Origin: Cupriavidus basilensis
GTDB lineage: Bacteria; Pseudomonadota; Gammaproteobacteria; Burkholderiales; Burkholderiaceae
Direction: 5' to 3'
Assembly: GCF_000832305.1 (NCBI RefSeq)
Contig: NZ_CP010536.1
Location: forward strand, 3,596,001 to 3,660,000
Length of the DNA stretch: 64,000 nt
In this document: piece by piece, positions 13,893 through 23,263 of the stretch
How the letters are laid out: each line of letters starts with the position of its first letter
Numbering within the stretch: position 1 is the stretch's first letter
The notes under the pieces: model-generated
Database searches by the model: none
Told to the model about the DNA's origin: nothing
The model's input: the letters and a program-made list of their open reading frames with translations, nothing else
Made by a program: the position numbers and the translations under genes

Positions 13893-13955
13893 GTTTCCAT
13901 CCTCGTGACACCGTAGTGAAGTGCAATCGATGAGCTGCAATCGATGAAGTGAATT

Positions 13956-15176
13956 CTAGTCACCCGGCAGTGGCGCGGGGAGTAACAAGGTCGTCGCGAA
14001 TCCCGCCACGGGCGGCGTCAGCCAGCGGCGCGCGCGCCCGCGGCCAAACGACTGCACCTTGCCCGCTGCCGCGAGCGCGTCGAGTGCCCGCTGCACGGTG
14101 CGCTGGCTAGCGCCAAGGGCCACCGCCAGGGCCGAACTCGACCATGACTCACCGTCTGCAACGAAGGCGAGCACCGCCGCGTGCGCCTCGTCCACGGGTC
14201 TCGCCAGCACGACAACCTCGTGGGCGACTTGCGGCACCAGCGCAAACCCGCGCCGGGTCGCGCTCACGCCAGCCAGCGGCCCGAGCACCGTGCGAAGCCG
14301 CCCGATTTCAACGCGTAGCCGCGCGCGATGCGACGCATCGGCGTGCCTGGCACGGAATGCCCGCGCAACGAGCGCGTCTCTCGGCACGTCCGCGGGCCAC
14401 GCTTCGGCCAGCGCGCGTGCGAGCGCGAACAGCACCGGACGCCTCGCCAGCGAGACCACCGTGCCCGCGTCACGCACGGCATGACGGCACGCGTCCACGA
14501 CGAGCGCCTTGGACGCCAGCAACGCTTCCACCTCATCGAGCAGGAGGAGCCGCTCCTCCCCACGCGCAATCAGGCGCGCCGCGGGCGTTTTCAGGACGAG
14601 CCATGCGCTCTGGACCTCCGCCGTCAGCGCGGGGATGCCGGCGTGGCGCGCCGCGTGCTCGGCCCGGGCAAGCGCGGCGCGTGCCGCCTTCGTGCGCAGG
14701 CGCCGTATCGCAATCCCCGCGACGACCAGCGCATGGGCGGCTCTGGACGCGGGCGGAAAGGGCGCCGGGTCGAGCTGGGCCAGCGCAAGCTCGGCCTCGT
14801 CGAGGCGCCCGATCAGGAGGAAGCGCCGGGCTTCGAGAAACCGCGCGTGCGCGGCGTTCACCCGGTCGCCGTGCGCCTCCAGGGTTGCGCGCGCCGCGTC
14901 GAGCGCCTTCGCTGGCCAGCTCAGGTCGCGCGAGACCAGCGCGATCTCCGCCTCGGCGACGACGCACCGCGCGCGGGCTACGGCCTCTTTCGGGCCGAAG
15001 GCGCGCGCCGCGCTTCGCACCAGCGCCTTCGCGCGCACGAGATCGCCAAGCTGCGCCATCGCGATGCCGCGCAGCGCAAGCGCTGGCGCGTCGTCGCGCA
15101 AGGCAACCCGGTTCAGCGCGCCAAGCGGGTCACCCGCCGCGAGCGCGCGCGCCGCGGCCGTGATCAGCGCATCCAT
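13956..15176 (-). CDS. TPR-like regulator with C-terminal winged HTH
   Basis: The 406-residue protein is extremely alanine- and arginine-rich. Its N-terminal two thirds look like helical TPR-type repeats (LGALNRVALRDDAPALALRGIAMAQLGD), and a helix-turn-helix lies near the C-terminus (SSALAVALGASQRTVQRALDALAAAGKV, then GRGRARRW). It is divergent from the DUF899 gene and precedes the beta-propeller gene. The arrangement suggests that it controls one or both. No sensor domain is identified. Confidence 0.7.
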   Translation of the reverse strand: MDALITAAARALAAGDPLGALNRVALRDDAPALALRGIAMAQLGDLVRAKALVRSAARAFGPKEAVARARCVVAEAEIALVSRDLSWPAKALDAARATLEAHGDRVNAAHARFLEARRFLLIGRLDEAELALAQLDPAPFPPASRAAHALVVAGIAIRRLRTKAARAALARAEHAARHAGIPALTAEVQSAWLVLKTPAARLIARGEERLLLLDEVEALLASKALVVDACRHAVRDAGTVVSLARRPVLFALARALAEAWPADVPRDALVARAFRARHADASHRARLRVEIGRLRTVLGPLAGVSATRRGFALVPQVAHEVVVLARPVDEAHAAVLAFVADGESWSSSALAVALGASQRTVQRALDALAAAGKVQSFGRGRARRWLTPPVAGFATTLLLPAPLPGD

Positions 15177-21372: not shown

Positions 21373-21753
21373 ATGGAATTCCTGAACTCCGGCAAAGTCC
21401 TCCCCGCAGGGCTGCCATTCTCCGAAGCCGTGCGCGTTGGCGATATGTTCTACCTCTCTGGACAGATGGGCATCGTCCAAGGCAGCACCCGCCTGGTGCC
21501 CGGCGGCATCCGCGAAGAAGCCAAGCAGGCGCTGATGAACATCCGCATCACGCTGGAAGCACACGGCCTGTCGCTCAAGCACGTCGCCAAATGCACCATC
21601 TTCCTGGCCGACATCAGCGAATGGCAAGTGTTCAACGAGGTCTACAAGGAGTTCTTCCAGGCACCCTATCCGGCGCGCAGTGCGCTTGGGGCGAATGGAT
21701 TGGCGCTTGGGGCCAGGGTGGAGGTGGAGTGCATTGCGGTGTTTAGCGGCTGA
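21373..21753 (+). CDS. RidA family enamine/imine deaminase
   Basis: The 126-residue protein is a member of the Rid (YjgF/YER057c) family, trimeric enzymes that hydrolyse reactive enamine/imine intermediates. GDMFYLSGQMGI and the C-terminal YPARSALGANGLALGARVEVECIA carry the conserved residues, including the arginine of the active site (about residue 106). The start MEFLNSGKVLPAG gives the family length. The stop codon lies inside a run of GGCTGAGT repeats. Confidence 0.88.
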   Translation: MEFLNSGKVLPAGLPFSEAVRVGDMFYLSGQMGIVQGSTRLVPGGIREEAKQALMNIRITLEAHGLSLKHVAKCTIFLADISEWQVFNEVYKEFFQAPYPARSALGANGLALGARVEVECIAVFSG

Positions 21754-21790
21754 GCGGCTGAGTGGCTGAGTGGCTGAGTGGCCGAGTGCC
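21746..21790. repeat. Tandem repeat, period 8, spanning a stop codon
   Basis: Copies of GGCTGAGT/GGCTGAGC begin within the last codons of the RidA gene and continue about 35 bases past its stop. Confidence 0.65.
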
Positions 21791-21861
21791 TGATACGGCG
21801 GCTACGAGCGGCCACGCCCCCGCTTGCGGGACGGTGGCACAGCTCGCCCTGCCGCCCTGGC

Positions 21862-22230
21862 TCAGAGCATGCCCTGCACCCGGTTCAAAGCCTCATCCAG
21901 CTGCTGCTTCAACGGGGTCAGCAGGCAGTGCAGCCCGTGGCTGTCCTCCACATCGTCGCTATCAAAATCCAGCAGCCTGAGCACAGCGCCAAGCCCTGCA
22001 CTGACGCGCAGCAGGTCGGCGCAGCTTTCTTGCGCGGTGCTTTGCGCACGGCTACGAAGTTCCTCGAGTTGGTAGGCCAGTTCCTGGACGCTGAGCTTGG
22101 TGGGCGTGTCGGCCGGGAAGGTCAGGCGGATTAGTTCGGCTAGCAGGGAGGATTGCCGGGAGATGGCGAGCGAGCGCTCTGGTGGATCAAGGTGAGTGGT
22201 TTGCTCTGAGCGAGCGACGGTATTAGGCAT
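21862..22230 (-). CDS. DUF1484-like small protein
   Basis: The 122-residue protein is helical and acidic, with VQELAYQLEELRSRAQ and LLTPLKQQLDEALNRVQGML at its end. This pattern is close to DUF1484, which I know mainly from Ralstonia and relatives. The ATG is preceded by GGAGG, eight bases upstream. Its leader contains a segment complementary to a predicted small RNA encoded just upstream on the same strand. Its function is unknown; the surrounding RNA layout recalls phage control genes, so a phage or satellite origin is possible. Confidence 0.65.
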   Translation of the reverse strand: MPNTVARSEQTTHLDPPERSLAISRQSSLLAELIRLTFPADTPTKLSVQELAYQLEELRSRAQSTAQESCADLLRVSAGLGAVLRLLDFDSDDVEDSHGLHCLLTPLKQQLDEALNRVQGML

Positions 22231-22300
22231 TGCGGCCTCCAGTGACAGAATGGAAGGCCCGCCGCTCATTTCCACATGAGGGTGGCGGACCCGCAGCGGG

Positions 22301-22320
22301 GGTGGAAACCGGCGTCACTA
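22301..22320 (-). promoter_or_regulatory. Antisense target site in the DUF1484 leader
   Basis: On the minus strand this reads TAGTGACG followed by CCGGTTTCCACC. Both blocks are complementary to the predicted RNA at 22397-22473 (TAGTGACG at 22425-22432 and GGTTTCCAC at 22438-22446 on the plus strand). A further TTTCCAC copy at 22270-22276 could pair with it within the leader, so two alternative structures are possible. Confidence 0.5.
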
Positions 22321-22396
22321 CATCCGGTCAGCCCGAAGGCTGCCCCGCCCGGCCCGCCATAGAAAAGTTATAGGCGTGCGCGAACGCAACGGACAC

Positions 22397-22417
22397 AAAA
22401 AAGCCGCAGAAAGCGGC
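22397..22417 (-). terminator. Intrinsic terminator with no protein gene before it
   Basis: GCCGC-TTTCT-GCGGC followed by TTTTTT on the minus strand is a canonical Rho-independent terminator. No minus-strand protein gene ends here, which is the main reason to propose a small RNA. Confidence 0.75.
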
Positions 22418-22473
22418 AGTCCGCTAGTGACGAATCGGGTTTCCACACCCGGTCACCCTTGTTTGGGGTGACG
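22397..22473 (-). ncRNA. Predicted C4/CI-like antisense RNA of about 77 nt
   Basis: Read on the minus strand, the region folds into three hairpins. The first is GTCACCC/GGGTGAC with a 7-base loop. The second is CGGGT/ACCCG with GTGGAA in the loop. The third is the terminator GCCGC/GCGGC followed by six T. A promoter with 17-base spacing lies at the right distance upstream. The loop and flanks of the second hairpin are complementary to the leader of the following gene. Size, promoter, terminator and complementarity all resemble phage P1 C4 and P4 CI RNAs; identity to either is not claimed. Confidence 0.6.
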
Positions 22474-22479
22474 TGGCAG

Positions 22480-22508
22480 ATTTTCGGCCAGCCAACGGTC
22501 GAAGTCAA
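22480..22508 (-). promoter_or_regulatory. Promoter of the predicted small RNA
   Basis: TTGACT (22508-22503) and GAAAAT (22485-22480) are separated by 17 bases on the minus strand. The expected start near 22473 coincides with the base of the first hairpin. Confidence 0.55.
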
Positions 22509-22741
22509 TCGACCCGGCGGAGCCAGGAATCGCCGACGTGTCGCAGCTTTCGCGTTCGCGCCACGGTCGATCTCCCCCTCGAGACCAGTTCGCCTGCAGC
22601 CCCGCTGATTGGTTACTCGCCCGCCATCGCCCGCACTTCGCGACACCATCCGGCGTTTCATCGCAGCGACCTGCCCAACGCGCCAGTGTCAGCCGAACAT
22701 GAGCATCATCGCGTTTCCCCCTGACAAGACTGGATGCTCAC

Positions 22742-23263
22742 ATGCTCACTGGAATCCTCCTCCACACGCCGCGATGGGTCTGGATCCTGCTCGCGAGCCT
22801 GATCGCGCTCGGCTTCGCGCAAGCCGTCCCCAGACGGATGACGCCGGCCCGCGCCACGGCTGTGCCCGTGGCCATGGCGGTGGTCTCGCTGGGCGGCGTC
22901 ATGTCAACCTTCTCGGCCTTCTCGGCGCAACCGCTCGCGCTGCTTGGATGGGGCGTCGGCGCGGCTGCCGCGCTGGCGCTGGCCCACACCGTCGGCGCCT
23001 GGAACGGCATTCGCTGGCTGGAGGCCGATCGCCGCCTGCTGGTGCCCGCAAGCTGGGTGCCGCTGTCGTTGATCCTCTGCCTGTTCATCACCCGCTACGG
23101 CGTGAGCGTGGCCATGGCGGTAAACCCCGGCTTGCTGTGGCATGCCGGCGTGGCGATGCCGATCGGCTTTATCTATGGTGCCGTTAGCGGTATCTTCCTC
23201 TCACGTAGCCTGGTGACCTGGCGGCTGACCCGGCAGGCAATGCTCGACAGCGTGCCGGGCTGA
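22742..23263 (+). CDS. Four-to-five-helix membrane protein (DUF6622-like)
   Basis: The 173-residue protein is almost entirely hydrophobic, with about five membrane segments. The N-terminus MLTGILLHTPRWVWILLASL and the conserved-looking SLGGVMSTFSAF resemble the DUF6622 membrane family. It should sit in the inner membrane. The next gene, a sterol-desaturase relative, follows 74 bases later on the same strand. No function is known. Confidence 0.7.
   Translation: MLTGILLHTPRWVWILLASLIALGFAQAVPRRMTPARATAVPVAMAVVSLGGVMSTFSAFSAQPLALLGWGVGAAAALALAHTVGAWNGIRWLEADRRLLVPASWVPLSLILCLFITRYGVSVAMAVNPGLLWHAGVAMPIGFIYGAVSGIFLSRSLVTWRLTRQAMLDSVPG

Follow-up and report, generated by a model that had tools for sequence, protein, structure and literature searches.

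A C4-type antisense RNA ahead of a DUF1484 gene in Cupriavidus basilensis: a probable free-standing switch cassette

A stretch of 64,000 nucleotides from Cupriavidus basilensis, referred to here as the window, carries on its minus strand an antisense RNA of the C4 family ahead of a small gene of the DUF1484 family. The membership of this RNA in the C4 family is firm, and we consider it quite probable that the RNA, its targets and the gene form a free-standing cassette in which DUF1484 is under antisense control. The case rests on comparison, namely the match to the C4 model and the covariation of the pairing boxes, because the duplexes of the window alone perform unequally against shuffled sequences.

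Identification of the C4 RNA and anatomy of the locus

When the whole window was searched against all Rfam models, C4 (RF01695) matched with 65.8 bits (cut-off 45, E = 1.5e-10) over model positions 1-87 of 87. A sequence-only reading of the same DNA had proposed an antisense system of the C4/CI type, and the match above the cut-off confirms it. That reading had also described a minus-strand TTGACT-17-GAAAAT motif, which is present, and about 77 bases with three hairpins and a T6 terminator, which were recovered by folding 22473-22397: the predicted fold consists of three hairpins and the terminator hairpin. However, since Rfam places C4 at 22364-22278, the parts had been assigned the wrong way round. 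The 77-nt stretch, taken for the antisense RNA, is the upstream a1/b1 target with its terminator; that it could be C4 itself is ruled out by the Rfam models and by the control with phage P4. Positions 22301-22320, taken for the target leader of the next gene, sit inside the C4 RNA.

In a search at lower stringency, the 77-nt stretch scored 49.1 bits with the isrK model (RF01394, at 22472-22397), just under the cut-off of 50, and its 5′ part scored 23.0 bits with c4-a1b1 (RF03163), under the cut-off of 46.7. Four related DUF1484 loci (L063, L065, L066 and L073) pass the isrK cut-off. As controls, satellite phage P4 gave 74.9 bits for C4, 60.8 for isrK and 44.1 for c4-a1b1, the last again below its cut-off of 46.7, and phage P1 gave 68.8 bits for C4. 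Our box-finding script recovered a1, b1, a2 and b2 in both phages, in the same order as in the window. The 14 control genomes yielded no C4 match at the default limit and a single one, below the cut-off, at E <= 1.

The features of the locus are collected in Table 1. The promoter-like site is the sole sigma-70-like site found within 21700-22750, where shuffled sequences average 0.0. The window has two complete target pairs, a1b1 upstream of C4 and a2b2 downstream. In the sequence-only reading a1, b1, a′ and b′ had been seen, as well as a third box near 22270, which is GTGGAAA on the minus strand and corresponds to a2; b2 had been overlooked. The gene, correctly recognised as DUF1484-like, matches PF07363 with 41 bits (cut-off 21.2). 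Its start is probably ATG 22230 rather than GTG 22275, which coincides with the a2 box, because of the position of the Shine-Dalgarno sequence and the alignment with relatives. The four neighbour genes tested encode an L-PSP family protein, a DUF6622 protein, a fatty acid hydroxylase and an alpha/beta hydrolase. A tandem repeat of GGCTGAGT (21748-21793, 5.8 copies) sits at the cassette edge, where the L-PSP gene ends.

Table 1. Features of the C4-DUF1484 locus in the window
Feature	Position	Strand	Basis or remark
Promoter-like site TTGACT-17-GAAAAT	22508-22480 (TTGACT 22508-22503, GAAAAT 22485-22480)	-	Motif scan
isrK/seqA-type leader RNA, 77 nt, with a1 and b1, intrinsic terminator at its end	22473-22397	-	Predicted fold; Rfam matches below cut-off
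a1 box GTGGAAA, complement of a′	22446-22440	-	Within GGTGTGGAAACC, 22449-22438
b1 box CGTCACTA, complement of b′	22432-22425	-	
Intrinsic terminator, 5-bp G+C stem and T6	Hairpin 22417-22403, T6 22402-22397	-	
C4 antisense RNA (RF01695)	22364-22278	-	65.8 bits, cut-off 45
b′ loop of C4, TAGTGACG	22320-22313	-	
a′ segment of C4, TTTCCAC	22308-22302	-	Within GGTTTCCACC, 22310-22301
a2 box GTGGAAA	22275-22269	-	
b2 box GTCACT, abutting the Shine-Dalgarno sequence	22246-22241	-	
Shine-Dalgarno sequence GGAGG of the DUF1484 gene	22240-22236	-	
DUF1484 gene, 122 aa	22230-21862	-	PF07363; probable ATG start at 22230-22228

Covariation of the pairing boxes

In the window alone, the a′-a1 duplex (-23.4 kcal/mol) was reached by none of 1000 mononucleotide-shuffled targets and the energy of b′-b1 by 4.7% of 1000. 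For b′-b2, with six Watson-Crick pairs, the share was 13% of 1000 shuffled targets, and for a′-a2 it was 50%. A proof from the duplex energies of the single window was rejected, as two of the four pairings fail to beat the shuffles.

Comparison with relatives shows covariation in all four predicted pairings. For this purpose 91 C4 loci were used (52 from Cupriavidus, 28 from the search of the order and 11 from Chromobacterium and Aquitalea), a subset of the C4 matches in genus and order which includes near-duplicates and holds 79 distinct box pairs; at least six contiguous Watson-Crick pairs are formed by a′-a1 in 90, by a′-a2 in 79, by b′-b1 in 81 and by b′-b2 in 71 of them. With boxes swapped between loci, the shares were 17.5%, 7.4%, 19.0% and 9.9%, respectively. 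Once repeated box pairs had been removed, 46 Cupriavidus loci remained, among which there are 22 distinct a′ and 42 distinct b′ sequences; pairing was found in 45 (a′-a1), 35 (a′-a2), 42 (b′-b1) and 32 (b′-b2) of them. For each of the four pairings, the observed mean was reached in none of 10000 permutations on these loci; like the swaps, the permutations ignore the relatedness of the loci. The test on 91 loci replaced a cruder one on 61 loci, with fixed windows and roughly placed boxes, in which the contrast between own and swapped mean scores was much weaker (20.8 and 18.7 for b upstream, 26.0 and 18.8 for a upstream, 22.7 and 16.9 for b downstream, 18.1 and 16.9 for a downstream).

The concerted change is also visible in an alignment of four DUF1484 leaders (window, G005, G006 and G015) with a mean column identity of 76%. 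The a boxes are identical here, and the b boxes (b1, b′, b2) fall into three types that change together, the window and G006 nearly sharing one of them. The boxes first marked from the sequence, GGTGTGGAAACC and CGTCACTA against TAGTGACG and GGTTTCCACC, are genuine, as their pairing is kept across relatives. The complementarity of the upstream boxes is largely maintained in homologous loci, as the sequence-only reading demanded, but some relatives have lost downstream boxes or C4.

Distribution and form of the cassettes

The named close protein relatives of the window's DUF1484 protein belong to Cupriavidus, with up to 82% identity. C4 was detected in 40 of 60 Cupriavidus genomes, with up to 11 copies; across the order, 55 of 399 genomes carry it. 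DUF1484 was found in 29 of the 60 and in seven of the 399 genomes, two of the seven being Cupriavidus and three others lying just at the cut-off. A C4 stands upstream on the same strand in 33 of 56 Cupriavidus DUF1484 matches and is missing in 14 (13 from the locus scan and one from the whole-genome search), the remaining nine being outside this check. The window genome gave five matches to C4 and four to DUF1484, and the two occur together at the window only. Two further proteins were noted: P0055, a DUF1484 protein 61% identical to that of the window and labelled Acinetobacter pittii, which points to contamination or transfer, and P0077, a metagenome protein of 192 aa that combines a transposase domain (PF00872) with DUF1484, perhaps by insertion beside such a gene.

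When the 52 Cupriavidus C4 loci were compared with one another in all combinations, 455 blocks over C4 were obtained. The longer ones in many cases extend from about 110-160 nt before C4, including promoter and a1b1, to about 490-550 nt past the C4 start, where the small gene ends, and the DNA outside these longer blocks is unlike, with some locus pairs sharing more; the median block is far shorter (-41 to +110). The C4 units often measure about 0.65 kb. That of the window occupies about 21748-22609, and its syntenic DUF1484 gene is common to G058 and G003; at the syntenic site of G005 the neighbour genes are the same but lie about 5.8 kb apart, with other DNA between them. Of ten small genes tested behind C4, seven lack any Pfam match and three encode short DUF1484-like proteins, one of which exceeds the cut-off.

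As far as checked, most units appear to lie outside any recognisable element, since integrases are rarely near them and the primase zinc-ribbon domain is absent or located elsewhere. Among the matches listed for 13 few-contig Cupriavidus genomes, three of 73 C4 are at most 20 kb from a listed integrase. No primase zinc-ribbon was found in eight of these genomes, and its five matches are on contigs without C4 among the matches listed. The window genome (G000) gave no match to this domain, with 150 of 165 candidates scored. On contig 2 of that genome, two inverted C4 cassettes about 92% alike were observed 8 kb apart (L137:5743-6456 and 13917-14635); they flank about 7.5 kb of other genes and could drive an inversion. 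In the case of L005 (C1:971141 of the same genome), C4 stands beside a tRNA-like sequence and is not followed by any obvious small gene.

Loss of C4 and insulation between copies

The syntenic orthologue of the window gene has no C4 in G058 and lacks the whole leader in G003, and the switch is thus not indispensable. Such losses speak for a decaying satellite or prophage relic without present function, as does the C4 at C1:971141 of the window genome, for which matching a1, b1 and b2 boxes are absent. The same holds for L040 and L041, two loci with DUF1484 genes of the C4 type that gave no C4 match in the locus scan and by eye seem to retain no more of C4 than its 3′ end, as though a rearrangement had cut off the rest. 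For the window itself, decay is nevertheless an unlikely explanation: it has a promoter-like site, a1, b1, terminator, C4, a2, b2, Shine-Dalgarno sequence and reading frame, and the b boxes change in step among close relatives, a pattern that decay would not produce.

The C4-less orthologue of G058 and the C4-less paralogues keep the promoter-like site in the same place, as judged by eye. A kept leader was seen, likewise by eye, at the C4-less loci L008 (G000 C1:3536811), L060/L146 (G003 C1:3555191), L147 (G058 C9:2450741), L009 and L144: here DUF1484 is directly preceded by the promoter-like site, by the a1 hairpin with GTGGAAAC or a close variant and, in most cases, by a hairpin resembling a terminator. 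In three species the leader would thus have outlived its antisense RNA. The a1 core of the window, GTGGAAAC, also stands in the leaders of two C4-less DUF1484 genes of its own genome (C1:3536811 and C2:3051157), so that the window C4 might reach both of them in trans. What speaks against it is that leaders of this kind persist in G003 and G058 as well, where the C4 boxes, read for one of two and two of three copies, are of other types.

Cross-reaction between copies was assessed in six Cupriavidus genomes, using 44 of their 50 reported C4 matches. Among cognate pairs, the upstream target fits at both boxes in 35 of 44, compared with only 12 of 290 non-cognate pairs; the downstream target does so in 14 of 44 and 1 of 290, respectively. 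These counts suggest that the copies are insulated from one another; because the upstream a box by itself fits in 55 of the 290 non-cognate pairs, this insulation would rest on the b box. Several cassettes (L200, L203, L204, L229, L231, L232, L233 and others) were seen to keep the upstream a1b1 complementarity, with b of up to 10 nt, and to have lost one or both downstream boxes, which makes them possible attenuator-only switches. Since many cassettes keep only the terminator-linked upstream target, these would work by transcription termination alone. The window retains both targets.

Relation to phages and satellites

A named scan delivered 11 DUF1484 loci from Chromobacterium (7) and Aquitalea (4), and C4 lies upstream in all 11. 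Flanking genes were read for two of these loci. The locus of Chromobacterium subtsugae (L105) lies in a P2/P4-type element: upstream it has genes for a P2-type capsid protein and an Ogr/Delta protein, and C4, a small ORF and DUF1484 are followed by a gene for a primase with zinc-ribbon and Toprim domains; C. vaccinii (L103) has an Ogr/Delta gene upstream as well. From this setting we infer that the C4-DUF1484 unit derives from P2/P4-type elements, and the phage-satellite origin suggested from the sequence alone is credible. The setting in C. subtsugae is not general, because no primase zinc-ribbon was found in four C4-carrying genomes of another family, which we take to be Aquitalea on the strength of a protein match and of which two have DUF1484. 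Instead, a tRNA lies upstream at three of the four Aquitalea loci. In the order, at L076, L086 and L094, the first or second gene after C4 was recognised by eye as an Ant- or Rha-like phage regulator, which is the classical C4 setting.

Unlike an immunity locus of the P1/P4 type, the window unit does not lie in a phage or satellite genome, going by the four neighbour genes tested and the primase zinc-ribbon search. Neither 50,697 phage records nor 2.9 million viral contigs yielded a relative of DUF1484 at the sensitivity used, and one pattern for window-cognate a1b1 targets had no exact match in viruses. A search of plasmids with the DUF1484 protein led nowhere; at the DNA level, seven plasmid records gave partial matches, none of which covers 80% of the query.

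Proposed mechanism of control

Control of DUF1484 by C4 is likely. P4 CI pairs with the nascent leader and causes termination, P1 C4 covers the flank of the Shine-Dalgarno sequence, and both RNAs act in trans. From these precedents and from that of Gifsy-1 (PMC4825925, accessible part), we infer transcription, processing, repression and release in the cassette. A single promoter would give rise to a transcript whose first 77 nt comprise a1, b1 and the terminator, and most transcripts would stop at this first terminator. Read-through transcripts would carry C4, which would be released by processing. In trans, C4 would pair with a1b1 of nascent transcripts and favour termination, as P4 CI does, and with a2b2, covering the flank of the Shine-Dalgarno sequence and blocking translation, as in the case of P1 C4. 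The DUF1484 protein would be kept off by its own leader and come on when C4 is titrated, for example by the short a1b1 RNA, or is not made. Processing of P1/P7 C4 from a longer transcript by RNase P is reported in the accessible text of PMC5320573. An RNA of about 77 nt is expected here because isrK (81 nt) and C4 of Burkholderia cenocepacia J2315 are described as one transcriptional unit in the part of PMC4603805 available to us. Evidence against a cassette switch comes from the c4-a1b1 and isrK scores, both below their cut-offs, and from the b′-b2 and a′-a2 energies, which in the window alone lie within those of shuffles.

The 77-nt RNA could instead be a trans activator or sponge that opens downstream translation by binding C4, either as a segment of the long transcript or in free form, in the way that IsrK of Gifsy-1 acts in Salmonella (PMC4825925, accessible part). 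This is a serious rival because the long leader (274 nt) is predicted to pair in cis, a1b1 with b′a′ (-124.8 kcal/mol), which resembles the inactive structure A of IsrK. The isrK score of the 77-nt stretch points in the same direction, but it stays just under the cut-off, and the C4 model predicts just as well that b′ covaries with b1 and with b2. Activation of this type is conceivable, though we are rather doubtful about it; it may also coexist with C4 repression in one locus. The same predicted fold would suit a purely cis-acting attenuator, in which pairing of a1b1 with b′a′ in one transcript sets translation or termination without any free antisense RNA, and so would the a1 hairpins, mostly with a terminator-like hairpin, which C4-less paralogues in G000, G003 and G058 keep (by eye). 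Such a device is improbable here, as the C4 fold is kept in full, even in its P1 stem, for which cis pairing has no need, and its homologues in phages P1 and P4 act in trans.

The DUF1484 protein

Apart from PF07363, no Pfam domain was found in the protein. Its AlphaFold2 model consists of three helices with a mean pLDDT of 76.2; fold comparison with this model gave no match at E <= 0.001, and an NCBIfam search led nowhere. By position the gene corresponds to ant of P1, to kil, which is among the P4 genes, or epsilon of P4, and to anrP of Gifsy-1. P4 epsilon is annotated as a helper derepression protein. Because of this position, and because the Chromobacterium protein VioS binds CviR, we think that DUF1484 may be a small helical protein which inactivates a DNA-binding regulator.

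VioS was annotated as DUF1484 by its authors on a weak match (E 8.35e-3; PMC5339254, accessible part) and is reported, with two-hybrid data, to bind and inhibit the quorum-sensing regulator CviR (accessible parts of PMC11019928 and PMC13043044). It is only a lead for the function of DUF1484, since the loci found here differ from the description of vioS and no protein of its length was recovered. In the accessible text of PMC5339254 and PMC11019928, vioS encodes 138 aa and adjoins a divergent XRE gene. The Chromobacterium loci L105 and L103 were rejected as vioS given their Ogr/Delta-type genes upstream and their products of 108 aa, and two protein searches yielded no Chromobacterium protein of 138 aa.

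Significance

C4 was predicted in Proteobacteria in 2010 (PMC2864571), named for Burkholderiales (PMC5320573) and noted in Mycetohabitans chromids (PMC12696581) and in Xylella (PMC12189769), as far as the accessible parts of these papers go. In the literature searched, which was mostly non-subscription and in part available as excerpts, neither C4 before DUF1484 nor free-standing C4 cassettes were found described. The RNA family is known, and its solitary, multi-copy and code-varying form is a variant that we did not find described.

A known phage immunity RNA is thus met here as a compact unit outside recognisable phages and across the genomes of one genus. Its pairing code has changed many times while the pairing was kept, so that the cassettes offer a natural set of antisense switches in which the evolution of specificity and the avoidance of cross-talk can be measured. 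Furthermore, the uncharacterised DUF1484 family is tied to a phage-type control, and the report on VioS and CviR makes an anti-regulator role testable. A more far-reaching idea, which we put forward as a speculation with little chance of being right in full, is that the dispersed single-gene C4 cassettes of Cupriavidus, each with its own pairing code, are mutually insulated RNA-locked switches that form an alarm repertoire with DUF1484 anti-regulators. If this were true, each lock would open only on a matching a1b1 RNA, from an invading satellite or a sister cassette, and the set would constitute a chromosomal immunity and alarm repertoire built of phage parts.

Comparison with known systems

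Close in layout is the seqA-CI-seqC region of P4, where a terminator leader, an RNA with the C4 fold and a second target downstream follow each other in the same order as in the window. In P4, epsilon lies between CI and alpha, much as DUF1484 of C. subtsugae lies between C4 and the primase gene. The window unit differs in standing alone among cellular genes and in having DUF1484 as its gene, and its gap between terminator and C4 is 32 nt, compared with 107 nt in P4. With the C4-ant system of P1/P7 it shares the C4 fold, the pairing of b′ beside the Shine-Dalgarno sequence and a′ as a second contact, and in P1 a1b1 and a terminator-like hairpin (by eye) are likewise found upstream of C4. However, the target gene of the window is not ant, and no tripartite c1/ant immunity was seen beside the unit.

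IsrK/STnc1160/anrP of Gifsy-1 in Salmonella resembles the window in its short terminated RNA, the read-through into a complementary RNA and the small gene (PMC4825925, accessible part), whereas antQ or prophage genes are absent among the window neighbours tested. The isrK-C4 unit of B. cenocepacia differs in that it is located on a genomic island, and DUF1484 is not mentioned in the accessible text of PMC4603805. The Group 1 C4-like sRNAs of Acinetobacter baumannii, with 21 copies in one genome and variable a′ loops, are alike in being multiple (PMC5320573, accessible part). That part of the paper describes neither an adjacent target gene nor an a1b1-a2b2 set for them; most of the C4 copies examined here, in contrast, have an upstream target and a small gene of their own.
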